This document shows, in pieces, positions 1,048 through 12,245 of a DNA stretch of 41,693 nucleotides. The stretch's first letter is position 1. Each line of letters begins with the position of its first letter. The notes beneath the pieces were generated by a model. The model ran no database searches. It was not told the DNA's origin and was given only the letters and a program-made list of their open reading frames with translations. Source of the DNA: a virus. The position numbers and the translations under genes are program-made. Location: the IMG/VR virus record IMGVR_UViG_3300022074_006580, positions 1 through 41,693 of that record; one strand, given 5' to 3'.

Positions 1048-1084
1048 GAATTATTTTTAGAAGGAGAGAAATAAAAAATAGTAC

Positions 1085-1113
1085 TTGACATAAAAGGTTA
1101 ATTCCATTATAAT
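1085..1113 (+). promoter_or_regulatory. Rightward sigma70-type promoter, leaderless start
   Basis: TTGACA (1085-1090), 17-bp spacer, TATAAT (1108-1113). Transcription would begin near 1120, which is the A of the ATG of the next gene, so the first message is probably leaderless. Confidence 0.88.
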
Positions 1114-1119
1114 ACTACA

Positions 1120-1296
1120 ATGAAAAATTATAGAAGGCGACCCTGGACGTACGAAGAGCGTACCCTCCTGGCAAATAAATATCATTTTTGTAAAGAAGCA
1201 GAGCTAAGTGAGATGTTTCCAGATCGTAGCTATAATTCATGTGTAAAACAGGCTAAATATCTGAGGGATAGAGGATGGGTATTCAAAAAGCCATAG
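1120..1296 (+). CDS. SANT/Myb-like small DNA-binding protein, 58 aa
   Basis: The protein carries RRRPWTYEERTLLANKY and later FPDRSYNSCVKQAKYLRDRG, the arrangement of a Myb/SANT or GcrA-like helix-turn-helix (W-T-x-E-E, then R-S-x-x-S-x-x-x-x). It is the first gene of the rightward operon. No Shine-Dalgarno is present; the ATG coincides with the predicted transcription start of a perfect promoter, and A-rich codons follow it, as is common in leaderless genes. The end overlaps the hydrolase start by 22 bases. A regulatory role is plausible but only inferred. Confidence 0.7.
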   Translation: MKNYRRRPWTYEERTLLANKYHFCKEAELSEMFPDRSYNSCVKQAKYLRDRGWVFKKP

Positions 1297-1775
1297 CAGC
1301 AGCACTGGGAGTATCTTTACTACTCTCTCCAAAAGCTGTAGCTGAAGAACTAGATGTTCGAAAAGAATTGTACTGTCTTGCAACAAATATCTACTTTGAG
1401 AGTAGAAATCAACCCCAGGTTGGAAGAGTTGCAGTAGGACAAGTAACGATGAACCGTATGAACTCACCAAAGTTTCCAAATACTGTGTGTGAGGTGGTGA
1501 AACAAGCTAGATATTATCCGAGTGGAAGAATTGATTTACATTCATGCCAATTTAGTTGGTACTGTGATGGCAAGTCAGATGCTATAAGGAATCAGAAAGC
1601 TTGGGATGATAGTATGTACTCTGCTTTATTTGTGTACACTTCAGATCCACTTTTAGACATTGTAGATGGTGCTCTTTGGTATCATGCAACCTACAGTAGC
1701 CCTGCATGGGCAAAGCATTTTGAAAAAACAGTTCAAATAAATGAACATATCTTTTATAAGGAGAAAGAACAATGA
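1275..1775 (+). CDS. Cell wall hydrolase, SleB (Hydrolase_2) family, secreted
   Basis: 166 residues. Residues 1-23 look like a cleavable signal peptide (ending SPKAVAEE). The mature part matches the SleB hydrolase domain: LATNIYFESRNQPQVGRVAVG with the likely catalytic glutamate E42, VTMNRMNSPKFPNTVCEVV, then CQFSWYCDGKSD. SleB-type domains cleave peptidoglycan glycan strands. With a signal peptide it would reach the periplasm through host Sec, so it is the best endolysin candidate here. Start choice: GAGG just before the ATG at 1275, inside the end of the previous gene. Two cysteine-bearing motifs are conserved. Confidence 0.88.
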   Translation: MGIQKAIAAALGVSLLLSPKAVAEELDVRKELYCLATNIYFESRNQPQVGRVAVGQVTMNRMNSPKFPNTVCEVVKQARYYPSGRIDLHSCQFSWYCDGKSDAIRNQKAWDDSMYSALFVYTSDPLLDIVDGALWYHATYSSPAWAKHFEKTVQINEHIFYKEKEQ

Positions 1776-1930
1776 GAGAGCCAGAACAGGGTGAACTATT
1801 CAGCGATGATTTCGTTCATGACGTATACCTAATAGAAACTGATGCAGAAGCATTAGCCTCAGCAGGGTTTCATACTAATGAAGAAAGCTACAATGAGCAA
1901 AATTGGGACGATATAGTTTATGGGAATTAA
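1772..1930 (+). CDS. Acidic hypothetical protein, 52 aa
   Basis: A short acidic protein (MREPEQGELFSDDF..., ending NWDDIVYGN) with no recognised family. AAGGAG lies 7-8 bases before the ATG at 1772, its start overlaps the hydrolase stop, and its stop TAATG overlaps the start of bS21. This tight coupling makes it a real gene. It has no membrane segment or cysteine. Function unknown. Confidence 0.72.
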   Translation: MREPEQGELFSDDFVHDVYLIETDAEALASAGFHTNEESYNEQNWDDIVYGN

Positions 1931-2136
1931 TGAAAATAACAGTTAGAAATGGTAATGTAGAAAGCGCTTTGCGTGTACTCAAAAGAAAAACGAAAGAGTC
2001 TCTTATTGATCTTCGTTCAAAAGAGCACTACGAAAAGCCCTCTGCAAAGCGAAATAGAATGAAACAGGCCGCAAAAGTGCGCGAAAAGAAACGGATTAGA
2101 GACCAAGGATTAAAGTGCAAATCACCAAAGAAATAA
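1930..2136 (+). CDS. rpsU: Ribosomal protein bS21
   Basis: 68 residues. The N-terminus ITVRNGNVESALRVLKRK and the central HYEKPSAKRNRMKQAA match bacterial S21 (E. coli has VRENEPFDVALRRFKR and FYEKPTTERKRAKA). bS21 sits near the anti-Shine-Dalgarno end of 16S rRNA on the small subunit and affects start-site selection. Viral bS21 genes are documented in aquatic phages. The ATG at 1930 overlaps the previous stop, and the frame upstream of it does not fit the family. The basic tail is shorter than in E. coli. Replacing host bS21 to favour phage messages is a published proposal, not shown here. Confidence 0.92.
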   Translation: MKITVRNGNVESALRVLKRKTKESLIDLRSKEHYEKPSAKRNRMKQAAKVREKKRIRDQGLKCKSPKK

Positions 2137-2537
2137 TAGAACTCTGGCATCAGCACGTTTTCGGAGATTGGATAAAAGAGATCGAAGTAGAATGGGAAAC
2201 CGTTGAGGAAGGCTTAATTACTGCAAGACTAGAAAACAAAGAAAAGTATTGCAGTCACCTAAAGCAGGGTAAAGATAGAATGTATGGCCAAGTAATTATG
2301 GCTCTTACGGATACCATGTCATTCATGGTTCTATATACTACCCCAATAAAACCGCTAGGAACTCTTACACAGCACAGCTCTTTTATAGGGGCAGCAAAAG
2401 GGCCGTTCTTTAAGATAGAATGCTGTGTAAAGAAACTTGGTAAAAGAATATCTCATGTAGAAACTACATGGCATGATAGCGAAGATACTTTAGTGTTTCA
2501 CTCTGTATCTAGCTTTACAATGATGGAAGAAAAATGA
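2115..2537 (+). CDS. Hotdog-fold thioesterase, PaaI-like
   Basis: 140 residues, GTG start at 2115 with AAGGA 5 bases upstream. Residues 57-66 (YGQVIMALTD) fit the glycine-rich helix of 4HBT/PaaI enzymes, with D66 in the catalytic acid position. TLTQHSSFIGAAKGPFF and VKKLGKRISHVET follow the beta-strand pattern of the family, ending DTLVFHSVSSFTM. These enzymes hydrolyse acyl-CoA or aryl-CoA thioesters in the cytoplasm. Substrate cannot be read from sequence. It overlaps bS21 by 22 bases and the next gene by 4, so all three are co-translated. Such a gene in a phage is uncommon. Confidence 0.78.
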   Translation: MQITKEIIELWHQHVFGDWIKEIEVEWETVEEGLITARLENKEKYCSHLKQGKDRMYGQVIMALTDTMSFMVLYTTPIKPLGTLTQHSSFIGAAKGPFFKIECCVKKLGKRISHVETTWHDSEDTLVFHSVSSFTMMEEK

Positions 2538-2926
2538 AAGTAAAAAGCATACCAAAAGCTACTAACTTTGAGTTAGTTGGAGACTTCATGGAAGCTTTCG
2601 GTCAAGATGTTTATATAGAACCTACTTGGCCTGACTTTTCTACTCGTGAGCTGAGATTAGAACTTATACAGGAGGAGGTAGATGAGCTTGGAGAGGCTAT
2701 GGAACAACGAGACATGGTGGGCATTGCAGATGCACTTACTGATATTCTCTACGTTGTATATGGCGCTGGCCATGCTTATGGTATCGACTTAGGTGAGTGC
2801 TTTCAAGAAGTACATGCAAGCAATATGTCAAAGCTCGGAGAAGATGGAAAGCCGATACGAAGAGAAGATGGAAAGATACTTAAAGGACCAAATTTCTTTG
2901 AGCCAGACTTGGAGACGTGTTTGTGA
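2534..2926 (+). CDS. PRA-PH/MazG-like nucleotide pyrophosphohydrolase
   Basis: 130 residues of all-alpha NTP pyrophosphohydrolase type. The metal-binding helix pair is visible as QEEVDELGEAM (E47, E48, E51) and ADALTDILYVVYGAG (D66, D70). The tail NMSKLGEDGKPIRREDGK and LKGPNFFEPDL is characteristic of the phage and bacterial phosphoribosyl-ATP-pyrophosphohydrolase-like family. These enzymes split nucleoside triphosphates or related substrates to monophosphate plus pyrophosphate. The start overlaps the thioesterase stop (ATGA), and the stop overlaps the GTG of the next gene. Nucleotide-pool control is the probable role; exact substrate unknown. Confidence 0.85.
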   Translation: MKVKSIPKATNFELVGDFMEAFGQDVYIEPTWPDFSTRELRLELIQEEVDELGEAMEQRDMVGIADALTDILYVVYGAGHAYGIDLGECFQEVHASNMSKLGEDGKPIRREDGKILKGPNFFEPDLETCL

Positions 2927-3075
2927 TTAACTATTTAGAGTTATTTATATTCACTACTTTTACTATTTTTGGAATGGTATCAGCACTATACTTTCCTATT
3001 GCTTGGGTGGAGAAACGGTGGCCTTTTCGTATAAAGAAAGGCGGTAAAACCAACTCTGGAGCAAAGTTTGGATGA
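2923..3075 (+). CDS. Single-span membrane protein, 50 aa
   Basis: GTG start overlapping the previous stop (GTGA). One hydrophobic helix (about residues 4-27, YLELFIFTTFTIFGMVSALY) is followed by a basic, cytoplasmic-looking tail (EKRWPFRIKKGGK). No family recognised. The coupling to the upstream gene and the clear membrane segment support it. Confidence 0.65.
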   Translation: MINYLELFIFTTFTIFGMVSALYFPIAWVEKRWPFRIKKGGKTNSGAKFG

Positions 3076-3085
3076 GGAAACTAAA

Positions 3086-3232
3086 ATGGGTTTAGGACTT
3101 ATGGATGGCTTTCCTGCTGCGCTAGAGTTCTGGGAACACTGGTGTAAAAGTGAAGGTGACATAATTGGAACTGAGAAAGGGTACCCATGCAACTGGTGTG
3201 GGGCCGAGGAAAAGGAAGATGATGAAGAATAG
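3086..3232 (+). CDS. Small hypothetical protein with a CxxC pair, 48 aa
   Basis: ATG at 3086 is preceded by GAGG. The sequence is MGLGLMDGFPAALEFWEHWC, then YPCNWCGAEE and an acidic tail. The C-N-W-C pair plus an earlier cysteine could bind metal but there is no full zinc-finger pattern. Its end overlaps the next gene. Function unknown. Confidence 0.6.
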   Translation: MGLGLMDGFPAALEFWEHWCKSEGDIIGTEKGYPCNWCGAEEKEDDEE

Positions 3233-3584
3233 GATGATGTGGTTCTTTTATAGTTGGGATACTATAATGAGCTTAAAATACAATCCCATAAGATTTATTG
3301 GAGATGTAAGTTTACAATGCTACTATATGATTGTACTCTCAATTATTTGGACTATGGCTTTTTGTAGTATGATAGCTGGGTGGTCAGGAGTTTTACCACT
3401 TATCGTAGGACACGTAGCTGTAATCTTTGCACTCTTTTTTACTTACGCTATCTTTTATGATGCAAGAAAAGACGGAAAAGGTTGGTTTCTAACTTGGGAT
3501 CGTTCTTACAAGATGTCAAAGTCTTACAAGAACAAAGACCGCAGCAAGAATGCTTGCAAGTGGGATCTGGAGCAGGAAGCATGA
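3219..3584 (+). CDS. Two-span membrane protein, about 121 aa
   Basis: Starts at either of two adjacent ATGs (3219 or 3222) behind GAGGAAAAGGAAG. Two hydrophobic helices are clear: YYMIVLSIIWTMAFCSMIAG and GVLPLIVGHVAVIFALFFTY. They are followed by a charged tail rich in lysine and aspartate (DARKDGKGWF, SKSYKNKDRSK). The layout would suit a holin-like or other inner-membrane protein, and it lies in the same operon as the wall hydrolase, but no family motif proves it. Confidence 0.65.
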   Translation: MMKNRMMWFFYSWDTIMSLKYNPIRFIGDVSLQCYYMIVLSIIWTMAFCSMIAGWSGVLPLIVGHVAVIFALFFTYAIFYDARKDGKGWFLTWDRSYKMSKSYKNKDRSKNACKWDLEQEA

Positions 3585-3760
3585 AAGTAACGAGATACAA
3601 GCATAAGCTGGAGCGTACATTTTATGTAACTCCAGCACTTGTCTGGGAATGGTCGTATACAAACTCTACAAATAAGCAAAAGGCCTACACCGTGGGTCTT
3701 GAGTTTGCAAAATGGGGTTTTTATATGGATCTTATCTTCGGCGGAGATAAGAAGTCTTAG
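3581..3760 (+). CDS. Hypothetical protein, 59 aa
   Basis: ATG at 3581 overlaps the preceding stop (ATGA) and has GGAGCAGGAAG upstream. The protein is aromatic-rich (YVTPALVWEWSYTNSTNKQK, FAKWGFYMDLIFGG) with no recognisable family. It is the last gene of the rightward operon, before a strong terminator. Confidence 0.65.
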   Translation: MKVTRYKHKLERTFYVTPALVWEWSYTNSTNKQKAYTVGLEFAKWGFYMDLIFGGDKKS

Positions 3761-3818
3761 CAACTCTTTCAGTTGCACACTTCGGGCAGAGCACCGTGTT
3801 AAAAAGAAAAGCAAAGTG

Positions 3819-3853
3819 AAGGACGGGACCTGTGTAATTACAGCCCCGTCCTT
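3819..3853 (+). terminator. Hairpin terminator at end of rightward operon
   Basis: AAGGACGGG (3819-3827) pairs perfectly with CCCGTCCTT (3845-3853), followed by TGCATTTT. An inner TAATTA palindrome lies in the loop. The leftward operon converges at 3946, and a second small hairpin (ACGCTT/AAGCGT, 3922-3935) lies between, so this 185-base gap separates two converging transcripts. No gene seen from 3761 to 3945. Confidence 0.75.
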
Positions 3854-3945
3854 TGCATTTTAGGTGATTAGGATCTAGCTTCATTTTGTAGCTCTTTCAG
3901 TCGCCATGCTAACGACTACTGACGCTTAAAAGCGTTCTCTCATTT

Positions 3946-4239
3946 TTACCAATCTCTTTTCTGGTTTTGAATTGATTCTATTCCCGCTACAATCTCTGCC
4001 CAGGGCGGGTTCTCTTCAAAATGTTTTTCGAGTTCTTTCATATCGAGCACTGGCTGCTTTAGAGCTTCCATCATGTACTCGAGATCGTTTTGCAACTCTT
4101 CTACACTTTCTCCGTAGGGCTTCATTGGATTTTCTGTCATGCCTTTGATCTTTCCATCATCGTCGTAGTAAACTTCATACAGTTGTAGAAATTCACCTTC
4201 AGGTGCTTTTTCCGAAACAATACGGTAGTTCCAAGTCAT
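3946..4239 (-). CDS. Conserved-type phage hypothetical protein, 97 aa
   Basis: Begins MTWNYRIVSEKAPEGEFLQL and continues YEVYYDDDGKIKGMTENPM. The N-terminal MTWNYRI and LYEVYYDDDGK pattern is seen in small proteins of many bacteria and phages, but I know no function. The C-terminal half is helical and acidic (SVEELQNDLEYMMEALKQPV). AGGAGAG precedes the ATG, which overlaps the stop of the upstream gene. It is the last gene of this leftward run. Confidence 0.75.
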   Translation of the reverse strand: MTWNYRIVSEKAPEGEFLQLYEVYYDDDGKIKGMTENPMKPYGESVEELQNDLEYMMEALKQPVLDMKELEKHFEENPPWAEIVAGIESIQNQKRDW

Positions 4240-4412
4240 TCATACTCTCCTAATTCTTCATCTGTAAACACATAACCTATACCAGAAAGAAACTGCTGAA
4301 AGGCTTGCATTAGTTGGTCTCTGGTAGCATCCTCTGAGTCTATTTCCATTCTGAGTTTTTCTACTGCAGTGTATTTTTCATTTTTTATCGTCGTGTAATT
4401 AATTGTTATCAT
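4236..4412 (-). CDS. Small phage hypothetical protein, 58 aa
   Basis: Starts at 4412 behind CAGGAGCG. The sequence includes VEKLRMEIDSEDATRDQLM and QAFQQFLSGIGYVFTDEELG. The motif of an L/A-rich helix ending in AFxxFLxxxGY followed by an acidic end recurs in small phage proteins, function unknown. Its stop overlaps the next start (ATGA), and its beginning overlaps the upstream gene by 14 bases. Confidence 0.7.
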   Translation of the reverse strand: MITINYTTIKNEKYTAVEKLRMEIDSEDATRDQLMQAFQQFLSGIGYVFTDEELGEYE

Positions 4413-4584
4413 TTGCTTTTCGCTCCTGTTCGTTTATGTGGTCTGTCAATATTTTTTCGAGTCCTGCATTCAACAATAGTTTCAATGCAGAAGCATCTAA
4501 GTCTAGCACTATATTTGCAGTGCCGTCTTCATTCTCTATAACTTCTATAACTTCTATAACTGGCAGTGTTTCTTCACTTTCCAA
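4399..4584 (-). CDS. Small hypothetical protein, 61 aa, TTG start
   Basis: Best start is TTG at 4584, with AGGAG (4596-4592) 7 bases upstream; an in-frame TTG at 4608 lacks a site. The protein has VIEVIEVIENEDGTANIVLD and then DASALKLLLNAGLEKILTDH, a fold pattern (two strands plus a helix) seen in small phage proteins. The VIEVIEVIE run reflects three tandem copies of a 9-bp unit near 4534-4560. Function unknown. Confidence 0.65.
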   Translation of the reverse strand: MESEETLPVIEVIEVIENEDGTANIVLDLDASALKLLLNAGLEKILTDHINEQERKANDNN

Positions 4585-4855
4585 AACGTGTCTCCTATTT
4601 AAAAACAAAACTTTTATACATTACCTGATTGCCGCTCTACAAGTTGTATCTCTTACCTACTCAAAAATAGTACTTTATTTATGCCAAAAAGTGTGGTAAA
4701 ATATATAACATATTTGATGAACAATCAAGTCAATCGTTAATTTACTCATCCAGCAGATTGGAGTTTTAATTAGAGCGTTAATACTGAGGAGCGAGCCGCC
4801 AGGCGAGTGCCTCTCAGTATAGCTCTTAATTAAACCGACAATCATCAATCTCACT
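4585..4855. other. Gap with no convincing gene
   Basis: Between the TTG-start gene and the 25-aa peptide. It contains the inverted repeat at 4766-4833 and A/T-rich flanks. On the minus strand TTGTAG and TATAAA about 18 bp apart, near 4615-4645, could be a weak promoter for the three downstream leftward genes. No other structure seen. Confidence 0.4.
4766..4833. repeat. Long imperfect inverted repeat
   Basis: Outer arms TTAATTAGAGC (4766-4776) and GCTCTTAATTAA (4822-4833) pair with one bulge. Inner arms ATACTGAG (4781-4788) and CTCAGTAT (4813-4820) pair perfectly. The 24-base centre can form a further small hairpin (GGCGAGTGCC). Neither side has a T-run, so it is not a standard terminator. 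Confidence 0.7.
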
Positions 4856-4933
4856 CTAATTCGCTTCAACTGAAGTAAGAATTACGACAACCACAAGGAC
4901 CGTGATAATTAAATATCTTGTTACGGGTCTCAT
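4856..4933 (-). CDS. Membrane micropeptide, 25 aa
   Basis: The ATG overlaps the stop of the upstream gene (ATGA) and AAGAAGGA precedes it. The peptide is MRPVTRYLIITVLVVVVILT followed by SVEAN: a basic start and one uninterrupted membrane helix. No family can be assigned at this size. The coupling signals argue that it is translated. Confidence 0.55.
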   Translation of the reverse strand: MRPVTRYLIITVLVVVVILTSVEAN

Positions 4934-5190
4934 TCCTTCTTTCCACCTTTCTCAAAATTCGTCTTAATTTCACGCAATTCGCGATTATTTTTTCGCTTTA
5001 AAATCTCTTTTGCTTGTCGTATTGCCCCAGTAACTACAGGGAATTTTCTTGAATCTTTAGAAATTATACGCAAGGTATAAAACATGGTATCATAGTTCGA
5101 GTTATGTGGTAGAGCACCAACCTCTTCCCAGATTTCAACTGTAGTAGAACCGTCTTCCCAACTTTCAACTAATTTTGGTAGTTTATTCAC
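4930..5190 (-). CDS. Hypothetical protein, 86 aa
   Basis: GTG start at 5190 behind AAGGAG, overlapping the upstream gene by 8 bases. Contains LPKLVESWEDGSTTVEIWEE, then YTLRIISKDSRKFPVV and a strongly basic/acidic helix ILKRKNNRELREIKTNFEKG. No recognised family. Third from last in a tightly packed leftward operon. Confidence 0.72.
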   Translation of the reverse strand: MNKLPKLVESWEDGSTTVEIWEEVGALPHNSNYDTMFYTLRIISKDSRKFPVVTGAIRQAKEILKRKNNRELREIKTNFEKGGKKE

Positions 5191-5494
5191 CCGTAGAGGC
5201 TCCTTTTAAGACTTTCAAAACATTCTTTGGGGCTTTCTCCAACCCCGCTAAGACCCCGGGCGAGATACCCAAAGCTTCTGCTAATTCTGCTACTAGCTCA
5301 ACTTTGGTCACTGGGGATTCGCCTGTCTTCGTCTTGTAGACGGAACGGCGGTACACTCCTTCTCGGCTTAACTTTCCGATTATAGACTTAGGAGTCTTGT
5401 CTAGTTCTTTTGCCAATCTTTCTACTGTAATACGTGTTGGCTTGTTCGTATATTCATCGACCATGTACTTGGTCTGATCTTCCGTATAGTTCAC
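5183..5494 (-). CDS. Helix-turn-helix-like phage protein, paralogue A (103 aa)
   Basis: Starts MNYTEDQTKYMVDEYTNKPT and continues ITVERLAKELDKTPKSIIGKL, then SREGVYRR. The pattern of an opening YTxxQ..., then VExLAxxxxKxxxSIIxKLSRxGVY, is a recurrent small protein in cyanophage and other aquatic phage genomes and looks like a helix-turn-helix with a recognition helix at KSIIGKLSREG. The C-terminal part (VTKVELVAELAEALGI...) resembles a second small helical domain. Two paralogues lie at 7820-8158 and 11127-11417. DNA binding is inferred. Confidence 0.75.
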   Translation of the reverse strand: MNYTEDQTKYMVDEYTNKPTRITVERLAKELDKTPKSIIGKLSREGVYRRSVYKTKTGESPVTKVELVAELAEALGISPGVLAGLEKAPKNVLKVLKGASTGE

Positions 5495-5700
5495 TAGTCC
5501 TCCGGATATTCTGTTAATAGTGTTTGTAGTTTCTCTGTGACTGATGCGAGTTTTTCAACTTCGCTGTCAATTGCTCCCAATATATCTGGGTGCTCTCCAA
5601 TCCCAACGGGGTTTTTCAAATAAACGTCAATGTTCATACGGTGGTATTCCATTTCTCCACTATACTTAGCTTTCAACGCATCTAGTATTCTACTTTTCAT
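5494..5700 (-). CDS. Conserved small phage protein, 68 aa
   Basis: ATG at 5700 overlaps the upstream stop (ATGA), with GGAGAAGAA before it. Sequence: MKSRILDALKAKYSGEMEYH, then NIDVYLKNPVGIGEHPDILG and a helical tail. The motif VYLxNPVGIGEHPDI is a hallmark of a widespread small protein of T4-like and other marine phages with no known function. Length agrees with those homologues. Confidence 0.82.
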   Translation of the reverse strand: MKSRILDALKAKYSGEMEYHRMNIDVYLKNPVGIGEHPDILGAIDSEVEKLASVTEKLQTLLTEYPED

Positions 5701-6017
5701 TTCTTCTCCAACTCTTCTGGATCGACCAAATGTATACTGATCTTTCCTGTTACTGTATCGCGAACCATTCCAACATAAGGACAGTAATCCAACCACTCAA
5801 GTGGAACATTGTCCTCACCAACTTCTTCGATATACAATATCATTAGCTTTTGGTAAGAATCCTCCATTTCATGTGTCTGATTCTGTATCGTTTCCATTCC
5901 TTTTCGTACTTTGTCCATCGCATCGTACATGTCTCCAAGAGAGTCACGCATCTCATTCATGCTGTCTTCCAGCTTTGATTTCAAAGTTTTATCAGGGAAT
6001 TGAATAATATCGCCCAT
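5697..6017 (-). CDS. Phage hypothetical protein with coiled coil, 106 aa
   Basis: Begins MGDIIQFP, a start shared by small phage proteins of this type, followed by a long helical region (residues about 10-65) with heptad-like spacing and a compact end (NVPLEWLDYCPYVGMVRD). AGGAGA lies before the ATG. In other marine phages a similar IIQFP protein is paired with the NPVGIGEHPDI protein, as here. Function unknown. Confidence 0.75.
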   Translation of the reverse strand: MGDIIQFPDKTLKSKLEDSMNEMRDSLGDMYDAMDKVRKGMETIQNQTHEMEDSYQKLMILYIEEVGEDNVPLEWLDYCPYVGMVRDTVTGKISIHLVDPEELEKK

Positions 6018-6026
6018 TAGTGTCTC

Positions 6027-6224
6027 CTACACTGTGTAGTTAATTACGTGTGAGTTTGTAACTGTTTGCAGCTTACCGTTAATGTCGTAGATTGTTACAT
6101 TATACACTGTTGAGTGCACTTGTGTAGTTCCAGGCTCAGTGCCTTCGTACACCTTTGTAACGACATCTTGGCGTGTGGTAGTGGTAGGAATGATAGCTCC
6201 TACACTAGGTATAATATCTGGCAT
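6027..6224 (-). CDS. Hypothetical protein, 65 aa
   Basis: Start chosen at 6224 because GAGGAG lies 7-8 bases upstream; an ATG at 6239 is in frame but lies before that site. Sequence MPDIIPSVGAIIPTTTTRQD then a beta-rich section (STVYNVTIYDINGKLQTVTN). No family recognised. First gene of the leftward operon driven by the promoter at 6248-6276. Confidence 0.7.
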   Translation of the reverse strand: MPDIIPSVGAIIPTTTTRQDVVTKVYEGTEPGTTQVHSTVYNVTIYDINGKLQTVTNSHVINYTV

Positions 6225-6247
6225 GTAACTTCTCCTCATTTACCTAT

Positions 6248-6276
6248 ATTATAAGGGACATGAAGAAAAAAGTCAA
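6248..6276 (-). promoter_or_regulatory. Leftward sigma70-type promoter
   Basis: Minus strand: TTGACT (6276-6271), 17-bp spacer, TATAAT (6253-6248). It follows directly after the terminator of the noncoding RNA and starts the operon running from 6224 toward 4856. Confidence 0.85.
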
Positions 6277-6294
6277 GAAATTTTTTTGAATAGG

Positions 6295-6335
6295 TATAAA
6301 AAAATGCCCCAAGGCTTGGACACCTTAGGGCATTT
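6295..6335 (-). terminator. Rho-independent terminator
   Basis: On the minus strand the 13-base arms at 6335-6323 and 6314-6302 pair with one mismatch around an 8-base loop and are followed by an unbroken run of seven T. It ends the candidate ~510-nt RNA. Confidence 0.9.
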
Positions 6336-6808
6336 CTCCAGTTGAGTACTCTTCGTTTATCTCACCTCACGATGAGCGAAGCGGGCTACCTAAATTAAGC
6401 GGTGGCTCCTGCTAGCTAGTCAGGACTAGGAATTACGATCCTCGATGACTCCGTCGGCTTCCGGCTTTCATGCTTTCGCGATATCCGGTTTAGCTACTGA
6501 CCTCCTTTTAGTTAGATGAGTGGGGTCCCTCCTACTTCCTCCACTCGCAAGCGAATCACAGACAGTACATATCGCTTCCCTACTCTGGATTGTGGGGATA
6601 TGCCCAGAGTGTAATTTACACACAAACATAGGAATTAATACCAGTTATGTGTGGACTACTTATCGAATGAGTCAAACGGGGATGACACTTTAACGATGTC
6701 TCTCATCCCATGGAGTAGAACGACTGGTTTTAGGCACTGCCCAGTCACAGTGGGGTCGTACAAACACCCTGCAGGTCGCCCATGGCCGATACTGCTCCCT
6801 AAATTTGA
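6296..6808 (-). ncRNA. Candidate large structured noncoding RNA, about 510 nt
   Basis: A leftward unit is bounded by TTGACA-N17-GATAAT (6843-6815) and a strong terminator (6335-6295), yet no reading frame longer than about a dozen codons has a plausible start on that strand. Several hairpins can be read: GACTGG/CCAGTC near 6719-6745, GGATGA/TCATCC near 6680-6710, ACTCTGG/CCAGAGT near 6580-6615, and GAGTGG/CCACTC near 6517-6548. Part of CACTG/CAGTG could form a pseudoknot. It is not recognisable as RNase P, SRP, 6S or a group I intron. Large phage RNAs such as GOLLD and ROOL, often near tRNAs, are the natural comparison. Confidence 0.65.
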
Positions 6809-6814
6809 AAAGAT

Positions 6815-6843
6815 ATTATCTCAAAAAATAACCTTTCTGTCAA
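6815..6843 (-). promoter_or_regulatory. Leftward promoter of the noncoding RNA
   Basis: Minus strand: TTGACA (6843-6838), 17-bp spacer, GATAAT (6820-6815). One base from the consensus; transcription should begin near 6808. Confidence 0.8.
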
Positions 6844-6855
6844 CAATTATTTTTG

Positions 6856-7086
6856 TTATCCTACTAAATTTCCTATTTTTCGGAAAGGTACTGGATAACC
6901 GTTTGTATCGTAAATCGTTTTCACACTATCACGACCTTCGCGAACAAAGCCACCAAGAATGTCATAGCTCATGCCTTCTCGTCGACTTACGCAGCGGATA
7001 GGAAATACTTCCTGCTCTCCAAGCATACGCTTACGGCTCACTTTCTTTTGTGATGCAATACGTGCGGGTTTCTTGCCTCTAGCCAT
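6856..7086 (-). CDS. Basic hypothetical protein, 76 aa
   Basis: AAGGAG precedes the ATG at 7086, and the start overlaps the end of the upstream gene. The first 25 residues are strongly basic (MARGKKPARIASQKKVSRKR), followed by SRREGMSYDILGGFVREGRD. No family recognised. The basic arm suggests nucleic-acid contact, but this is only inference. Confidence 0.7.
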   Translation of the reverse strand: MARGKKPARIASQKKVSRKRMLGEQEVFPIRCVSRREGMSYDILGGFVREGRDSVKTIYDTNGYPVPFRKIGNLVG

Positions 7087-7270
7087 TTACATTCTCCTTT
7101 GCTACTTTTGCTGCGGCAGCGCTCATTGCTCGGTTTTGAACCAGCCAAGCGATATCTTCAGCAGTTGCTAATTGTGCTCTCAAGATAAAAGCAAGTGCTT
7201 CTTCAGACTTGAGACCCTCGCTCATCATGCCACCATGCATCATGAACAATTCAAATTGTGAATCTGTCAT
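7079..7270 (-). CDS. Hypothetical protein, 63 aa
   Basis: Start at 7270 chosen because GGGAG lies just upstream and the predicted transcript begins near 7288. Sequence MTDSQFELFMMHGGMMSEGL then an alanine-rich helical part (AMSAAAAKVAKENVNG). No recognised family. First gene after the promoter at 7295-7323. Confidence 0.7.
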   Translation of the reverse strand: MTDSQFELFMMHGGMMSEGLKSEEALAFILRAQLATAEDIAWLVQNRAMSAAAAKVAKENVNG

Positions 7271-7294
7271 ACTGTTCTCCCTTAATATGCGTAT

Positions 7295-7323
7295 ATTATA
7301 CAGGCTTACGCATTTCATGTCAA
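7295..7323 (-). promoter_or_regulatory. Leftward sigma70-type promoter
   Basis: Minus strand: TTGACA (7323-7318), 17-bp spacer, TATAAT (7300-7295). The bases after the -10 box (ATACGCATA) are shared with the PPK2 promoter. Confidence 0.88.
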
Positions 7324-7333
7324 ATCTTTTTTG

Positions 7334-7407
7334 TGGACTAGGAGGTCGGAATCGAACCGACGTACACGGAGTTGCAGTCCGTTGCGTAGCCTCTCCGCCA
7401 CCCCTAG
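7334..7407 (-). tRNA. tRNA-Cys (anticodon GCA)
   Basis: 74 nt including an encoded CCA (7336-7334). The acceptor stem CTAGGGG/CTCCTAG pairs with one G-U. The anticodon arm is ACGGA, loop CTGCAAC, TCCGT, giving GCA for cysteine. The T arm GTCGG, TTCGATT, CCGAC is canonical. It lies immediately upstream of a promoter and downstream of the tmRNA region on the same strand, so it may be processed from that transcript. Confidence 0.93.
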
Positions 7408-7424
7408 AAATTAAACTTAGAAAA

Positions 7425-7514
7425 CATACTGGGCTGGGGTCACGATTTTCTTCTCCCCGATCTTTTCTGACATATCCATCCCTACGAGGGGACAGTCGCG
7501 GTCTTCCCAGTATG
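7425..7514 (-). ncRNA. Unexplained folded element between tmRNA and tRNA-Cys
   Basis: CATACTGGG (7514-7506) and CCCAGTATG (7433-7425) on the minus strand form a perfect 9-bp outer stem closing about 72 nt, followed by TTTTC. Inside, TCCC/GGGA and GGGG/CCCC pairs are possible. It has no T-loop so is not a tRNA, and it lies after the tmRNA stop hairpin. It could be an extra tmRNA domain, a processing element, a terminator, or a separate small RNA. Confidence 0.5.
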
Positions 7515-7519
7515 CTTAC

Positions 7520-7817
7520 TAAGTGGCTCTCCTTTTGATAACAAGGCGAGAGCCTCTCCCCGTCTAGCTTATGCTGCTAGAGAATAAACGTCGTCATTGG
7601 CGTTTGTAGTTTTTCTTACGTTTACGGTAGCTTGCACACCGATTCTCCACTAACCTGAGATTGCTTGTCGAAACCATGCTCCCCCATCAAAAGCACACTG
7701 TTGCTCAAGGATGCGATCCTACATAGACTTACTGACGCTTGCACGTTCTCAGTGTGCTTTTGGTGGAGGAGGGGGGAATCGAACCCCCGTCCACTCAATC
7801 CTACTTTAGCTTCACCG
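7520..7817 (-). ncRNA. ssrA: Circularly permuted (two-piece) tmRNA gene
   Basis: The acceptor piece comes first (about 7817-7761) and carries the T arm GGGGG-TTCGATT-CCCCC, acceptor strand CTCCTCC, A and encoded CCA. The coding piece follows from 7685 with GGGGGAG, which pairs with CTCCTCC over all seven positions with one G-U. The tmRNA signature GGTTTCGAC is at 7675-7667. A 75-nt intervening segment is closed by a perfect 12-bp repeat (7689-7700/7750-7761). CAATC (7663-7659) can pair with GATTG (7800-7796) as a P2 core. The tag frame is at 7601-7569. Hairpins TCTAGC/GCTAGA and GGCTCTC/GAGAGCC follow. The exact outer ends are estimates. Confidence 0.9.
7569..7601 (-). other. tmRNA proteolysis tag reading frame, ANDDVYSLAA
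   Basis: Ten codons from GCC (resume codon) to TAA encode ANDDVYSLAA. It matches the E. coli tag ANDENYALAA in length, the AND start and the LAA end that ClpXP and other proteases recognise. The stop codon lies in the loop of the TCTAGC/GCTAGA hairpin, as in other tmRNAs. Confidence 0.9.
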
Positions 7818-7819
7818 AA

Positions 7820-8158
7820 TTAGTTAGCCTCGGCGTTAGTCTCAACGATAGCCAACAAAGTCATTAGGTCAGACTTGGTAGCTTTGCCCAAAGAAGGCAA
7901 GCTGAGATCAGTACCAAGAGCATTTTGAATTTGCTCTACCAATTCGTCTTTGCGAACTACAGCAACACCTGCTTTGGTCGTGCTACGCTTTGCAGGAACG
8001 TAGATGCCGATGTTGGACAGCTTAGAAATAATGCTGCGCTTTGGCTTGCTGAATTGAGAAGCAAGTGCTTCTACAGTTGCCATTGTAGGCTCAGCTTCGT
8101 ACTGGTCGGTCATAGATGAAACCATTTCGTCCGTGTAGTTAACTGCTGAATCTGCCAT
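7820..8158 (-). CDS. Helix-turn-helix-like phage protein, paralogue B (112 aa)
   Basis: Start at 8158 chosen for GGGAG upstream and because homology with paralogues A and C begins there (VNYTDEMVSSMTDQYEAEPT). The core VEALASQFSKPKRSIISKLS and NIGIYVPAKR matches paralogue A at VERLAKELDKTPKSIIGKLS. The C-terminal part ends in a small helical domain (LGKATKSDLMTLLAIV). It has its own perfect promoter, and its stop codon abuts the acceptor piece of the tmRNA, so the two are probably transcribed together. Function: probable DNA binding, inferred. Confidence 0.75.
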   Translation of the reverse strand: MADSAVNYTDEMVSSMTDQYEAEPTMATVEALASQFSKPKRSIISKLSNIGIYVPAKRSTTKAGVAVVRKDELVEQIQNALGTDLSLPSLGKATKSDLMTLLAIVETNAEAN

Positions 8159-8194
8159 ATTTTTTCTCCCGAATGTTTGTTTGTTTAAGTGTCT

Positions 8195-8223
8195 ATTATA
8201 CAAGCCAAAGGTTAAAATGTCAA
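8195..8223 (-). promoter_or_regulatory. Leftward promoter for paralogue B and the tmRNA block
   Basis: Minus strand: TTGACA (8223-8218), 17-bp spacer, TATAAT (8200-8195). The -35 box overlaps the stop codon region of the PPK2 gene. No terminator is seen before the tmRNA, so it may also transcribe the tmRNA and tRNA-Cys. Confidence 0.87.
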
Positions 8224-8861
8224 GAACTTTTTTCACTTTTCGTCTCCAGTATATCGCAGAGTTTTGTGATAAGAGCTAGTCGTCCCTCTGGCTTGTTGTT
8301 GTAGTTAATTGTATACCAATTGTTAGTCGTTGTCAATACCCTTTCTTTGAGTAGGGTCATCTCATCGTAATATGATAATGCTCGCTCGTCGTTTGGGGAC
8401 AACTTCCAAAACTTGAGCGGGGATACTTTCCTCTCAGCCAATCTGCTAGCCTGTTCTTCCTCACTGATAGACAGCCAGAACTTAATCATTCGAACAGGAG
8501 CTTGTGCTTTCTCCCAAAAATTTACATCTTCCATGAAATCTTGATACTGGTCGTTAGAGCACCAGCCATTGATCTTTTGTACCATTGCTCTTGAGTACCA
8601 AGATCGGTCGTAGAATACCATCTGCTTGCCTGATGGCATTTTGGTACCCCAGTAATCTAGCCAGTTTTCCATAGTTTTTGGACTAGGTTTGGCAGATAGC
8701 TGTACACCAAATTTGCTTACAGGCAAGTAGTGGGTAACCTCTCGGATCGTAGATGATTTGCCCGCAGTATCACGACCTTCAAGCACAATCGCAGTAGGAC
8801 CGAAGTCTTTTGACATTACGATTTGGTTGAGCCGAGCCTGCTGGGTTTCTAATTTATTCAT
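8220..8861 (-). CDS. Polyphosphate kinase 2 family (PPK2) nucleotide kinase
   Basis: 213 residues with all three PPK2 signatures. Walker A is LEGRDTAGKSST (27-38), Walker B is FYDRSWYSRA (83-92), and the lid module RKVSPLKFWKLSPND spans 144-158. PPK2 enzymes transfer phosphate from polyphosphate to nucleoside mono- or diphosphates (AMP, ADP, GDP) in the cytoplasm. The protein is shorter than most cellular PPK2s (about 230-300), missing part of the N-terminal extension. AGGAG precedes the ATG at 8861; it is a one-gene unit with a perfect promoter. It could feed nucleotide pools from host polyphosphate during infection, which is inference. Acceptor preference cannot be read. Confidence 0.94.
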   Translation of the reverse strand: MNKLETQQARLNQIVMSKDFGPTAIVLEGRDTAGKSSTIREVTHYLPVSKFGVQLSAKPSPKTMENWLDYWGTKMPSGKQMVFYDRSWYSRAMVQKINGWCSNDQYQDFMEDVNFWEKAQAPVRMIKFWLSISEEEQASRLAERKVSPLKFWKLSPNDERALSYYDEMTLLKERVLTTTNNWYTINYNNKPEGRLALITKLCDILETKSEKSS

Positions 8862-8884
8862 CTATTCTCCTAAAGTATGCGTAT

Positions 8885-8913
8885 ATTATACAACCCTAAG
8901 CATTGTTTGTCAA
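8885..8913 (-). promoter_or_regulatory. Leftward promoter of PPK2
   Basis: Minus strand: TTGACA (8913-8908), 17-bp spacer, TATAAT (8890-8885). It overlaps the end of the upstream gene at 8910. Confidence 0.88.
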
Positions 8914-9113
8914 GAACTTTGTGGTATTTCCTCCCAAAAGAATTCGTCGCCAAACATTGCTTCTAGCACTTCTTCTAGACTGCCCTCTGCCAGACGGTCG
9001 TCATCTTCTAACAGCTCTTCTCTTGCGTTCGCAATAAGGTTGTGCCAGTCCAAGCTCGTGTAGAACTTAAACGATTGGTCTGCGATGTCGAAGCTAACGT
9101 GCGTGTATTTCAT
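8910..9113 (-). CDS. Acidic hypothetical protein, 67 aa
   Basis: Starts MKYTHVSFDIADQSFKFYTS at 9113 with AAGGAAA upstream, and has a perfect promoter. The second half is very acidic (EELLEDDDRLAEGSLEEVLE). Small acidic early proteins in phages often act as inhibitors or DNA mimics, but nothing here shows it. No family recognised. Confidence 0.7.
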   Translation of the reverse strand: MKYTHVSFDIADQSFKFYTSLDWHNLIANAREELLEDDDRLAEGSLEEVLEAMFGDEFFWEEIPQSS

Positions 9114-9140
9114 TTATCTGTTTCCTTAAATTATGCAACT

Positions 9141-9169
9141 ATTATACAACCCCAACCCTCTCTTGTCAA
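9141..9169 (-). promoter_or_regulatory. Leftward sigma70-type promoter
   Basis: Minus strand: TTGACA (9169-9164), 17-bp spacer, TATAAT (9146-9141). Drives the acidic 67-aa gene. Confidence 0.88.
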
Positions 9170-9309
9170 ATGTATTTTGCGGAATTGCTCATAAAACATC
9201 GCAAAGTTATTCCCGGGGGCCGCGCGCGGGGTTTTTCTGTCAAGTTTTATTTTGCCCAAATCTTCCAAAATTTGCCAAGATTTGCCACGCTTTTGCGGGG
9301 TCTGCGCCA

Positions 9310-9338
9310 ATTATACACTATTATCGTCCCCGTCGCAA
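9310..9338 (-). promoter_or_regulatory. Leftward promoter-like site
   Basis: Minus strand: TTGCGA (9338-9333), 17-bp spacer, TATAAT (9315-9310). Perfect -10, two mismatches in the -35. No gene begins directly after it, so its target could be the acidic gene at 9113. Confidence 0.55.
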
Positions 9339-9418
9339 GACCTGCCCAATCAAAATAAATTGCACGCAACCCCGCAAAAAGACTTGACAAATCGCAGCAC
9401 TGCGCGTATAATCGGCGC
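9335..9418 (+). repeat. 84-bp direct repeat, copy 1
   Basis: Shares the order of blocks with copy 2 (9461-9544): TGCCCAATC, an A-rich run, CCCGCAAAAA, GACTTGACA, a TATAAT-like box and GGCGC. Both span 84 bases and start 126 bases apart. Divergence is substantial between the blocks. Confidence 0.7.
9384..9412 (+). promoter_or_regulatory. Rightward sigma70-type promoter inside the repeat
   Basis: TTGACA (9384-9389), 17-bp spacer, TATAAT (9407-9412). It points toward 9.8-11.4 kb, where all genes are leftward, so it would make an antisense or small noncoding transcript, or act as part of a replication or control region. Confidence 0.75.
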
Positions 9419-9460
9419 CCGGCCCATTTTAAGGTCGAAAATCGACTTTGCACTGGCGCA

Positions 9461-9544
9461 GAGAGACTTGCCCAATCTAAAAAAATTTTGTCCACACCCG
9501 CAAAAAAGACTTGACATTGGTCGCTTTTGCACGTATTTTGGCGC
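9461..9544 (+). repeat. 84-bp direct repeat, copy 2
   Basis: Second copy of the block order. It keeps TTGACA (9511-9516) and a 17-bp spacer, but the -10 box is TATTTT (9534-9539), so this promoter should be weaker. Confidence 0.7.
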
Positions 9545-9639
9545 AAGGAACACCTTCGGTTTTGCACATCGTTTTCCCACTGGCGCCCCCGCGCCAAAAT
9601 CGCGTTGTCAAGCGATCTGGCTGCGGTGGGGGCGGGGAG

Positions 9640-9655
9640 TGTTCCACGTGGAACA
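9640..9655. promoter_or_regulatory. parS: parS centromere-like site
   Basis: TGTTCCACGTGGAACA is a perfect 16-bp palindrome and an exact match to the chromosomal-type parS consensus TGTTNCACGTGNAACA bound by ParB/Spo0J of the host ParABS segregation system. No parA or parB gene lies in the window. Only one copy was found by eye. Confidence 0.85.
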
Positions 9656-9798
9656 GTCTGGGGGAGGCGCGAGCCTAGCCTACCCTGAGAGGATAAGCCA
9701 AGCGACGCCTAACAACAAGGCTATGTCGGCGGAGACGGAATAGGCCATATAGACCGCAACCAAAATTTTCCAGAGCCGCGAGTTTTTCTTTTCCTGTT

Positions 9799-10464
9799 TC
9801 ATAGTCCGAGCATCCATTTTGCAGAAGGGCTTTTTGCCATACCAGCCGCCAACAGTTTTTCTCTGCTGGTAGGGCTGGCGATGATAGTTGCTAGAATCGC
9901 GCCTTCGTAATCGCGGGCATCTTCCAGCGCGGTGTGAGGTTCGACGGGTAAGGTCGGGTCAACGAATCGCGCAACATGGTCGGCCTTGCTAGATAGCTGG
10001 CCGCCCTTGGTGAACCAATCGTTCTCATGGCACGCCTGAGCGTAGTCGTCGGTTGAGACGATAACCGCCTTGGCCGCTTGCATCAAATCGAAGCGATTAG
10101 CAAAAATGCCCAAGTCGATGCCGGTATTGCGGCATTTGCCCCAATCGAAACCGATATTGTAAGCGGTCAAGATTGGCGAGAAAGTCGCAGCCATCTCAGC
10201 CAGCCAACGATTGACATAAGCCGGAGTCGCGATAGCGCGGTCGCCATTCGCAACCATGCCCTGATATTTTCGCAGGGTATGCTTGGGGTTGCCGAGCGAC
10301 CAATGAAAATCAGTCGCGCCGAAAATGCCCTCGATGAGAACGCCCAACGATGCCGCTACGTTGCCTTTGCGGTCGATAACAACCGCGCCGAAATCCGCTA
10401 CCCGATCATCCGACGTTGTTTCAACGTCGACGATGAGGTAATAGTGTTTGAGAGTGATTCTCAT
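9799..10464 (-). CDS. DEDDh-type 3'-5' exonuclease
   Basis: 221 residues with the five catalytic residues of DEDDh exonucleases: D13 and E15 in LIVDVETTS, D107 in AYNIGFDWGK, and H177 and D182 in PHTALEDARDYE. The family includes the DNA polymerase III epsilon subunit, RNase T and phage exonucleases that trim DNA or RNA from 3' ends with two metal ions. AAAGGAG precedes the ATG, which overlaps the stop of the HAD gene (TAATG). Codon usage is markedly richer in GCC, GCG and CGC than genes left of 9 kb or right of 12 kb, so transfer from another source is likely. Substrate unknown. Confidence 0.88.
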   Translation of the reverse strand: MRITLKHYYLIVDVETTSDDRVADFGAVVIDRKGNVAASLGVLIEGIFGATDFHWSLGNPKHTLRKYQGMVANGDRAIATPAYVNRWLAEMAATFSPILTAYNIGFDWGKCRNTGIDLGIFANRFDLMQAAKAVIVSTDDYAQACHENDWFTKGGQLSSKADHVARFVDPTLPVEPHTALEDARDYEGAILATIIASPTSREKLLAAGMAKSPSAKWMLGL

Positions 10465-10940
10465 TATGCAATGCTCCTTTGAATGTATGCGTTATATTGT
10501 ACCGGATCAACCACGCGAAGTCCAACGCCGCGTAGAGTATTTTGAACGTCGATTGAATCGTCAAACATGATTGAATCGTGCGCGAATTGAACCCAGTTCA
10601 CGCCCATTGCTGCCGCCATGCCGCGCAGCTTGGTTAGCTTAAGCTCGCCGCATGGTCGGGCATCGCCCTCGCCTATGCGATGGATAACAGGCCCGCCATT
10701 GGGGAGCAAACCCTGCAAGCGTAGGAAGGCAAAATCTGCCTTGCCCATCACGCGGCTAGTGCAAACCCAAACGTCCAAGCCATCTTGAATCGCGGTCTGC
10801 ATCTTGCCAGCCAACGGAAGCAATCCGTCGCGCATGATGTTGCCAACGGTATTGAGCCGCCGCCAATCGTCAAGGGAGCCGTCCCCTTGTCGGTGGGACG
10901 AATCAACAACCGTCCCGTCAAGATCAAAAATGAATCGCAT
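10464..10940 (-). CDS. HAD-superfamily phosphatase
   Basis: 158 residues. Motif I is FIFDLDGTVVDSSHR, with nucleophile D6 and general acid D8. Motif II serine/threonine is in VWVCTSRVMGK, a lysine follows in ELKLTKLRG, and acidic motif IV is FAHDSIMFDDS. The layout suits small cap-less phosphatases such as the 3'-phosphatase part of phage polynucleotide kinases, but no kinase domain is present. Start at 10940 chosen for GGAGGA 6 bases upstream. With the exonuclease next to it, a role in nucleic-acid end processing or nucleotide metabolism is possible. Exact substrate not determinable. Confidence 0.82.
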   Translation of the reverse strand: MRFIFDLDGTVVDSSHRQGDGSLDDWRRLNTVGNIMRDGLLPLAGKMQTAIQDGLDVWVCTSRVMGKADFAFLRLQGLLPNGGPVIHRIGEGDARPCGELKLTKLRGMAAAMGVNWVQFAHDSIMFDDSIDVQNTLRGVGLRVVDPVQYNAYIQRSIA

Positions 10941-11130
10941 AAAAATATCCTCCAATACCGATTATGTTTAAGAAAACCAGATTATAGCATTCTTTGCGTA
11001 TAGCTTGCAAGGTCAATAATCCGAGTCCGACGATAGCAAGCGCCTTGCCTTCCGTCGTGTCGATGATGAAGGGAGCGCAGCATAACGCTGCTGCTCCCAA
11101 CCAATCTGCTAAGGTGCGAAGCAATCTCAT
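10924..11130 (-). CDS. Small two-span membrane protein, 68 aa
   Basis: Two hydrophobic segments, DWLGAAALCCAPFIIDT and ALAIVGLGLLTLQAI, then a third weak one at LVFLNIIGIGGYFYAIH. The pattern ALCCAPF...KALAIVGLGLLTxQAI is a recurrent small phage protein with no known function. The start overlaps the stop of paralogue C, and its end overlaps the HAD start by 17 bases. Codon use is GC-rich at the start and more AT-rich at the end. Confidence 0.72.
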   Translation of the reverse strand: MRLLRTLADWLGAAALCCAPFIIDTTEGKALAIVGLGLLTLQAIRKECYNLVFLNIIGIGGYFYAIHF

Positions 11131-11417
11131 TTAAGATTGCTCAGGACGACATCAAGCTCGGCCTTAGTGAGATCGCCAGCGCGATCAGGCAAAGCAACCG
11201 CCTGACGAATAGCATCCGTCAGCTCGGCTTTGGTGATGCCCTTGGCAACTCGCGCCTTGGGCGATGCCTTGACATATTCCAAGCCAAGATGCTTGGCCTT
11301 GGAAATGACCGAGCGATGGCTAACGCCAAAGTCAGCCGCGAGATCCTTAGCGGTCTCTAGGTTAAGCGGAGCCGCCGCTTGCAGTTTGGCAACCATTGCC
11401 GGAGTGTAGTTAGACAT
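11127..11417 (-). CDS. Helix-turn-helix-like phage protein, paralogue C (96 aa)
   Basis: MSNYTPAMVAKLQAAAPLNL then TAKDLAADFGVSHRSVISKA and KHLGLEY. It aligns with paralogues A and B at NYT, the LA..F.....RSVISK recognition-helix region, and the C-terminal K-A-E-L repeat (GITKAELTDAI, DLTKAELDVVL). AAGGAG precedes the ATG. It is encoded with GC-rich codons, unlike A and B, so it was probably acquired separately with the island rather than by recent duplication. Probable DNA binding, inferred. Confidence 0.75.
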   Translation of the reverse strand: MSNYTPAMVAKLQAAAPLNLETAKDLAADFGVSHRSVISKAKHLGLEYVKASPKARVAKGITKAELTDAIRQAVALPDRAGDLTKAELDVVLSNLK

Positions 11418-11444
11418 AGAAGTCTCCTTAGTTAGTGTTCGAGT

Positions 11445-11472
11445 ATTATAGCAAATGGAGCGAGTGAGTCAA
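11445..11472 (-). promoter_or_regulatory. Leftward promoter of the island operon
   Basis: Minus strand: TTGACT (11472-11467), 16-bp spacer, TATAAT (11450-11445). Drives paralogue C, membrane protein, HAD phosphatase and exonuclease. Confidence 0.8.
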
Positions 11473-11491
11473 ATACCGATTTGGAATAAGC

Positions 11492-11692
11492 TTATGCTTT
11501 TTCGGCATATAGGCGGACGATCATGAACGCCAGAGTAACTAACAGAAAAGCTAAGGCGATGCAGGCAAAGCCGAGAACCTGAGTCAGCCAATCGCCGCCG
11601 CCCGTAACAAACAGCCAGCCGCTAATAGCCGTGACGCTAACAATAATTGTTAGCATGACAGAAGAAATAATAACGCCGATATAGTAAAGCAT
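11492..11692 (-). CDS. Two-span membrane protein, 66 aa
   Basis: Two long hydrophobic helices: YYIGVIISSVMLTIIVSV (about residues 3-20) and VLGFACIALAFLLVTLAFMI (about 39-58), separated by GWLFVTGGGDWL. AGGGG precedes the ATG. The size and topology would allow a holin-like role, yet no family motif supports it. A TTGACA (11750-11745) upstream with a poor -10 (TAAGCT, 17-bp spacing) may be its promoter. Confidence 0.65.
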   Translation of the reverse strand: MLYYIGVIISSVMLTIIVSVTAISGWLFVTGGGDWLTQVLGFACIALAFLLVTLAFMIVRLYAEKA

Positions 11693-11897
11693 GGGAAGCC
11701 CCTTTCATTGATTCAGCCTATAGCTTAAGGCATCCCGCCGCGCTTGTCAATTGTTTTTGCCTATCAATAGGGGGGCGGTTAATAGACCTTGCCTATCGCC
11801 GCGCCGCGGGCGTACTCCACACGTACAACTTGGGGTATTTTTGACTTCATAATTTTGTAACGAAATTGTCATGTCTCATTCATAATAAAAATAGTAT
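11693..11897. other. Divergent intergenic region, return to AT-rich sequence
   Basis: No gene seen. The GC-rich composition of the island ends near 11840 and AT-rich sequence resumes. It separates the leftward membrane protein from the rightward late genes. Confidence 0.6.
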
Positions 11898-11926
11898 TTG
11901 ACAATTTAGCCCTCCAGTGGTATAAT
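11898..11926 (+). promoter_or_regulatory. Rightward sigma70-type promoter
   Basis: TTGACA (11898-11903), 17-bp spacer, TATAAT (11921-11926). Predicted leader of about 43 nt with AAAGGAG before the GTG start at 11976. Confidence 0.9.
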
Positions 11927-11975
11927 ATTCCTCGAAATCACCAATGATTTCAAAGAATTCTAAAAGGAGAATATC

Positions 11976-12245
11976 GTGAAACTTGCAATCGTAGCTGCTG
12001 CTGCTTTAACTCTTGCTCTACCCCTGTCTGCAACCGCCTCTGAAAAACTGGATCTTACTTTCACAAAAATGGAAGATGGAACTTACTGCGGTAAATTTTA
12101 TAGAAATCGCTGGTCGAATGACATGAAGTATCAATGCCGAACTCAAAAAGAATGGGAAAAACTGGGAGTAAAGTTTCCTCAGCCTAAAACAGAAAAAGTA
12201 ATTCTAGGAGAGCCCGACCTAGAACCAGATCAAGCAGTAGCTTAA
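11976..12245 (+). CDS. Small secreted protein, 89 aa
   Basis: GTG start behind AAAGGAG. Residues 1-21 form a classical Sec signal peptide (KLAIVAAAALTLALPLSATA, probable cut after ATA-S or nearby). The mature part has two cysteines (GTYCGKFYRN and YQCRTQKEWEKLG) that could form a disulfide in the periplasm; CRTQKEW resembles motifs in small secreted proteobacterial proteins. It is a single-gene unit with a perfect promoter and terminator, as expected for a highly expressed product. Function unknown. Confidence 0.78.
   Translation: MKLAIVAAAALTLALPLSATASEKLDLTFTKMEDGTYCGKFYRNRWSNDMKYQCRTQKEWEKLGVKFPQPKTEKVILGEPDLEPDQAVA

Follow-up and report, generated by a model that had tools for sequence, protein, structure and literature searches.

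A family of large mosaic RNAs encoded by marine T5-like phages

The virus record IMGVR_UViG_3300022074_006580 of IMG/VR (41,693 nucleotides (nt), analysed in full and called the window here) is a stretch of a marine T5-like phage genome, whose large terminase shares 48-49% identity with its counterparts in T5-like phages, for example Pectobacterium phage My1. The minus strand of this 41.7-kb record carries a gene for a large noncoding RNA of ~508 nt, a member of a family of large mosaic RNAs in marine T5-like phages that had not been described before. Literature searches, which left subscription papers mostly out of reach, returned no description of an RNA family composed of the domains named M1 to M4 below. 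That this is a real, selected, noncoding structured RNA family is almost certain. The proposal as a whole, in which an independently transcribed ~508-nt RNA of an undescribed mosaic family acts as a translation-linked RNA scaffold, is judged fairly probable, and the scaffold role, considered by itself, is put forward tentatively.

Homologues of the RNA occupy the same locus in related phages. With the 76-amino-acid (aa) neighbouring protein as query, six IMG/VR contigs were found with an RNA at the same place, and the homologues in marine T5-like phage contigs sit between the gene for this protein and the next promoter. Further members were found with patterns taken from a conserved hairpin, a GNRA hairpin and the GATAAGGCAGTAAAGAT core; searching for M2 by a loose regular expression returned mostly noise, and covariance models were used instead. 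Members split into a window-like clade (L002, L003 and L005, with L024 intermediate) and clades headed by M1 at the 5′ end, and in the window-like clade and those nearest to it the promoter-to-terminator length varies between 497 and 660 nt. No exact 22-mer match to the window RNA was found in IMG/VR, a blastn comparison of the RNA with 50,697 phage records gave only short chance-level matches, and model R1, which describes M1, had no match in seven named T5-like and Pelagibacter phages. A pattern scan of 84,980 prokaryote genomes produced a single apparent chance match in seemingly coding sequence. The blastn match in Pseudomonas phage ZQG1, a 40-nt piece in a short intergenic gap, was likewise dismissed as chance-level.

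A preliminary description of this region, made from the letters alone, had proposed a large structured RNA with its own promoter and terminator. That much is borne out, although the description did not give the strand and overlooked both the mosaic build and the M1 copy next to a transfer-messenger RNA (tmRNA). The promoter matches the sigma-70 consensus at 11 of 12 positions, and the same promoter lies ahead of the RNA in L002, L003, L005, L004, L007, L012 and L024. Many near-perfect promoters occur in the phage, with 46 promoter-like sites observed versus 26.8 +/- 5.8 in shuffles (15 kb). Positions 1-12000 of the window hold several perfect TTGACA-17-TATAAT promoters in both orientations, and promoter regions are repeated within relatives. 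The terminator, a hairpin followed by a U-run, is kept in homologues with an altered stem sequence (L004, L007). No plausible reading frame had been seen in the region, and the comparison agrees: no stop-free stretch within the RNA exceeds 58 codons, and relatives do not preserve the longest one in strand, frame or position, their own longest stretches lying on other strands, in other frames and at other positions. Insertions between relatives are not multiples of three, and L002 additionally has a whole transfer RNA (tRNA) inserted. Folding energy by itself is weak evidence for a structured RNA, with z = -2.5 for the RNA strand against -3.4 for its complement.

Base pairing is under selection. 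M3, a series of tandem hairpins (H2, H3 and H4), is the most widely shared domain of the window RNA. Across 22 distinct M3 sequences, 96.0% of the cells in H3 and H4 are paired, 11 of 14 pairs carry double changes, and the covariation score is 0.790 versus 0.242, with slid versions pairing at 34-46%; the alignment was fitted to the structure, which favours pairing, and a gap of this size is hard to explain by fitting alone. Model R2 was built from ten M3 sequences and detects the domain in 27 contigs, scoring 88.7 bits on the window, which is itself in the seed. It also recovered the non-seed copies of L143, L145, L148 and the L129/L131/L132 group at expectation values (E) of about 1e-7 to 1e-5; each of these copies lies downstream of M1 in the same RNA, except that of L148, which is in a separate nearby RNA. 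In M2, ten different outer stems are all complementary and the inner two pairs appear as GG/CC, GC/GC, AC/GU and GU/AC, while H2 has thirteen different strand pairs with complementarity kept in all; this pairing is support rather than proof, because the strands were picked by eye. M4 has six pairs with double changes among nine sequences, and its terminal hairpin CUCAUC-GUGA-GGUGAG is enclosed by outer stem variants CUUCG/CGAAG, CACUA/UAGUG and CUCU/AGAG. The clade-specific 5′ domain is represented by an alignment of only four similar sequences with little covariation, and is substituted by M1 and other elements in related phages.

The preliminary description had reported clear hairpins and proposed a search for homologues with covarying stems; such homologues exist, and the hairpins are supported by the covariation in M3 and by the changed strands in M2, H2 and the GNRA hairpin of M4. 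Its possible pseudoknot fares less well: pairing between the CCCC loop of H2 and the adjacent AGGG is plausible and not proved, since both are mostly invariant across relatives.

The stem arms of the large RNA are inverted repeats in DNA as well, and T5-like phages use special DNA sites. A DNA element such as a replication, nicking or packaging site, with inverted repeats that mimic RNA stems, is nevertheless scarcely credible here: the element is framed by a promoter and a terminator, its stems contain G-U pairs, it contains a GNRA loop and, in L002, a tRNA, and the significant R1 and R2 matches all fall on the transcribed strand. A large antisense or sponge RNA of the phage, regulating host or phage messenger RNAs (mRNAs) by loop base pairing, is distinctly unlikely. 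The purine-rich H4 loops (RGGnGG) and the swap hairpins of M4 could expose pairing sequences, but what is conserved is structure and junctions, not long single-stranded seed regions, and the stems covary.

Domains are exchanged among these RNAs. Three unrelated hairpins occupy one M4 site in different phages, a second M4 site is also variable, and one of the three swap hairpins, GAAAAGGGAAUAAAAACCG, reappears in a different RNA in L152. The tRNA of L002 sits precisely at the boundary of M3 and M4. M1 takes various places: other long RNAs have it at their 5′ end, in their interior or at their 3′ end, and it is also seen beside tmRNA and before a small open reading frame (ORF). Given the hairpin swaps, the L002 insertion and the varied placement of M1, the large RNAs look like mosaics assembled from exchangeable folded domains (M1, M2, M3, M4 and the swap hairpins). 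ARAGORN assigns the inserted tRNA (L002 5585-5659) a four-base anticodon (gtta), which hints that the anticodon loop is enlarged. A long-range CCAGU/ACUGG helix, attractive in itself, shows too little variation for support, and ACUG seems to close M4 locally.

M1 forms a 96-nt 5′ domain of the large RNA in related phages and lies outside the 508-nt RNA in the window clade. Its 21 distinct sequences share the order P1, AA, P2, AGUAAAGAU, P3, AG and the return to P1, where P2 consists of GCC/GGC with the internal loop AnGGAC/GAUAA plus a variable hairpin; the invariance of the 17-base core is partly an artefact of the exact search pattern. In these sequences 92.2% of cells are paired, 13 of 18 pairs are changed on both sides, and the covariation score is 0.503 versus 0.143 in shuffles, with slid versions pairing at 25-48%. 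With model R1, M1 is detected in 42 distinct contigs at E < 1e-9, duplicates of one contig being counted once. The window copy (51.3 bits, E 6.9e-12) is an independent match, because no clade-A copy is in the R1 seed; all of its pairs are standard, and one P2 pair has changed from C-G to A-U. In L145, L147 and L170 the variable hairpin is enlarged by a 17-nt tandem repeat (TTTTGTACTTGATACAG) in differing copy numbers.

The family is also linked to tmRNA. A permuted tmRNA is present in 19 of the 35 member contigs versus 2 of 50 contigs chosen by their terminase, an enrichment partly due to members having been found near the tmRNA locus; its unbiased part is the two terminase-chosen contigs, both of which carry M1 and M3. 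That M1 is located next to tmRNA in some phages and within the large RNA in others hints at a specific partnership. Nine of the 35 member contigs contain the terminase of the window phage group; relatives of this terminase are frequent in marine viral contigs, and the RNA family may therefore be common in the ocean. L145 carries two different permuted tmRNAs (579-877 and 6532-6902) with different tag peptides.

Large structured phage RNAs count as a known general kind because GOLLD and ROOL exist. GOLLD is a large marine phage RNA found near tRNAs, with a conserved 3′ part, a less conserved 5′ part and sometimes a tRNA in the linker, and it binds ribosomes in pull-downs (PMC12286853). The window family likewise lies near tRNAs, combines a conserved 3′ with a variable 5′ part and carries a tRNA in the linker (L002). 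Unlike GOLLD, which is often >800 nt, it measures ~500-660 nt in the nearest clades, its domains recur elsewhere in other orders, and it is linked to a permuted tmRNA. ROOL is a phage or prophage RNA near tRNAs, with pseudoknots and a length of 659 nt for env-120 (PMC12286853); the window RNA is of comparable length, phage-borne and near tRNAs, whereas its free exchange of domains sets it apart. The vicinity of tRNAs, remarked on in the preliminary description, is real, with tRNA-Cys upstream on the same strand, but the kinship with GOLLD or ROOL at which it hinted finds no backing. Rfam 15 gave no gathering-score match in 6296-6808 and, at permissive thresholds, only terminator-like or short-hairpin sub-threshold matches; the RNAs of relatives had no Rfam match at either setting, in keeping with the earlier impression of an RNA like no known class. 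The GOLLD model (RF02032) found nothing significant in 33 member contigs and the window, the positive control having been run for ROOL only; its sole signal in the member contigs reached 7.6 bits (cut-off 150) in one contig, far from the RNA. The ROOL model (RF03087; gathering score 99.1 bits) matched neither the window nor any of the 33 member contigs, and scored 130 bits on L. salivarius pMP118, a known host plasmid. By every test run, then, the window family appears unrelated to GOLLD and ROOL, GOLLD-like in layout and setting and not in sequence or domains. The shared setting (PMC12286853) would also fit a true homologue of GOLLD or ROOL, diverged too far for the Rfam models to detect; set against the empty model searches, where the 7.6-bit signal is a chance match, and the strong ROOL control, this is very improbable.

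Two other systems invite comparison. The long noncoding RNAs of phage K, a staphylococcal kayvirus, are abundant, long and near tRNA genes, and have been likened to GOLLD and ROOL by position (PMC9241854); the window RNAs belong to a different phage group, and blastn against phage records gave no real match. In phage Melnitz, a glutamine riboswitch is attached to the phage ssrA (PMC9004378). The permuted tmRNA of marine phages (RF04321) adjoins the RNA here, and M1 beside tmRNA resembles the Melnitz arrangement, but M1, which has no Rfam match, is not a glnA riboswitch, and the large RNA is transcribed separately.

The window RNA is most likely an unrelated counterpart of the large 'ornate' phage RNAs that would act on or with the translation machinery. 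Host RNA polymerase would make the RNA from its strong promoter during infection, and the transcript would fold into a compact particle of several domains, which may form oligomers as GOLLD and ROOL do. During cell takeover the particle may then serve as an RNA scaffold working on or with components of the translation machinery, be it the ribosome, tmRNA or phage tRNAs, a role suggested by the neighbouring genes, the embedded tRNA, M1 beside tmRNA and the analogy with GOLLD. A more elaborate version, which we regard as doubtful, is a platform RNA evolving by cassette exchange: an RNA-only particle of interchangeable domains, with M1 movable to a place beside tmRNA, that would act on the translation machinery and be unrelated to GOLLD and ROOL. 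If true, this would be a class of natural RNA machine with no relationship to either. Few large 'ornate' RNAs have been described, and the window family adds an unrelated one with dozens of domain-swapping natural variants. These variants offer a way to assign function to domains, and let one ask whether large RNAs have evolved in phages again and again in the service of the translation machinery.

Several observations weigh against the proposal. Choosing the M2 and H2 strand pairs by eye favours pairing, and 16 of the 35 member contigs have no visible tmRNA, though most are fragments. The H4 loop variants GGUAGG and AGGCGG misfit a simple anti-Shine-Dalgarno decoy, which was rejected on their account as the main constraint on these loops. 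Finally, in three lineages (L148; L159/L165/L174; L143/L145) a small membrane-protein gene follows M1 or M3 directly, as it would a cis-regulatory leader. The modules, M1 above all, could be ligand-sensing aptamers or riboswitch-like leaders, and the long RNA the leader of an mRNA or a termination by-product. The three-way junction of M1, ~96 nt long, has many unpaired bases that do not vary (AGUAAAGAU, AA and AG), partly owing to the exact-core search, and M1 directly precedes a small ORF in L148 and L159/L165/L174. We consider this alternative unlikely, however, as the RNA of the window and most members stops at its own terminator and a fresh promoter precedes the next gene, M1 is found as well at the 3′ ends of RNAs, in their interior and next to tmRNA, and most members have no terminator or ribosome-site switch after M1. 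The small proteins encoded directly after M1 or M3 in L143, L145, L148, L159 and L165 have one apparent membrane segment (e.g. MDGVTIALIVVALLIIPSSNK...).

Table 1. Features of the large RNA and its surroundings in the window
Feature	Position	Strand	Remarks
Large noncoding RNA, ~508 nt	6298..6806	-	Start inferred from promoter, end from terminator
Sigma-70-type promoter TTGACA-17-GATAAT	6815..6843	-	11/12 consensus positions; just upstream of RNA start
Clade-specific 5′ domain, closed by UUUAGG/CCUAAA	6729..6803	-	Fold and alignment
Hairpin GGGAUGA...UCAUCCC	6679..6709	-	Fold; found in four clade-A sequences
M2 hairpin, conserved internal AAYUGGUAUnAAUUCCUAUG	6619..6653	-	
M3 domain (tandem hairpins H2, H3, H4)	6515..6613	-	Model R2, covariation
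H2 with CCCC loop	6610-6582	-	Part of M3
AGGG, possible pseudoknot partner of H2 loop CCCC	6581-6578	-	
H3	6577-6549	-	Loop ends in GUGA in most members
H4	6546-6518	-	Loop motif RGGnGG
M4 3′ domain, closed by CAGU/ACUG	6339..6499	-	
M4 swap site 1	6488-6461	-	
M4 swap site 2	6441-6387	-	
M4 GNRA hairpin	6381-6351	-	
Intrinsic terminator, hairpin and U-run	6298..6335	-	Present in minimum-energy fold
76-aa basic protein gene	6856..7086	-	Immediately upstream of large RNA
tRNA-Cys (GCA)	7334..7407	-	
M1 element, three-way junction	7423..7516	-	Directly 3′ of tmRNA; between its coding piece and tRNA-Cys
Permuted (two-piece) tmRNA	7478..7857	-	Tag ANDDVYSLAA; ARAGORN 3′ boundary overlaps M1

Upstream of the RNA, on the same strand, lie the permuted tmRNA, tRNA-Cys and two small protein genes, whose products (79 aa and 76 aa) have no match in Pfam or PHROG. 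Downstream, a fresh promoter starts the next genes. The window also encodes a phage polyphosphate kinase 2 (PPK2) at 8220-8861 on the minus strand (Pfam E 2.7e-42).
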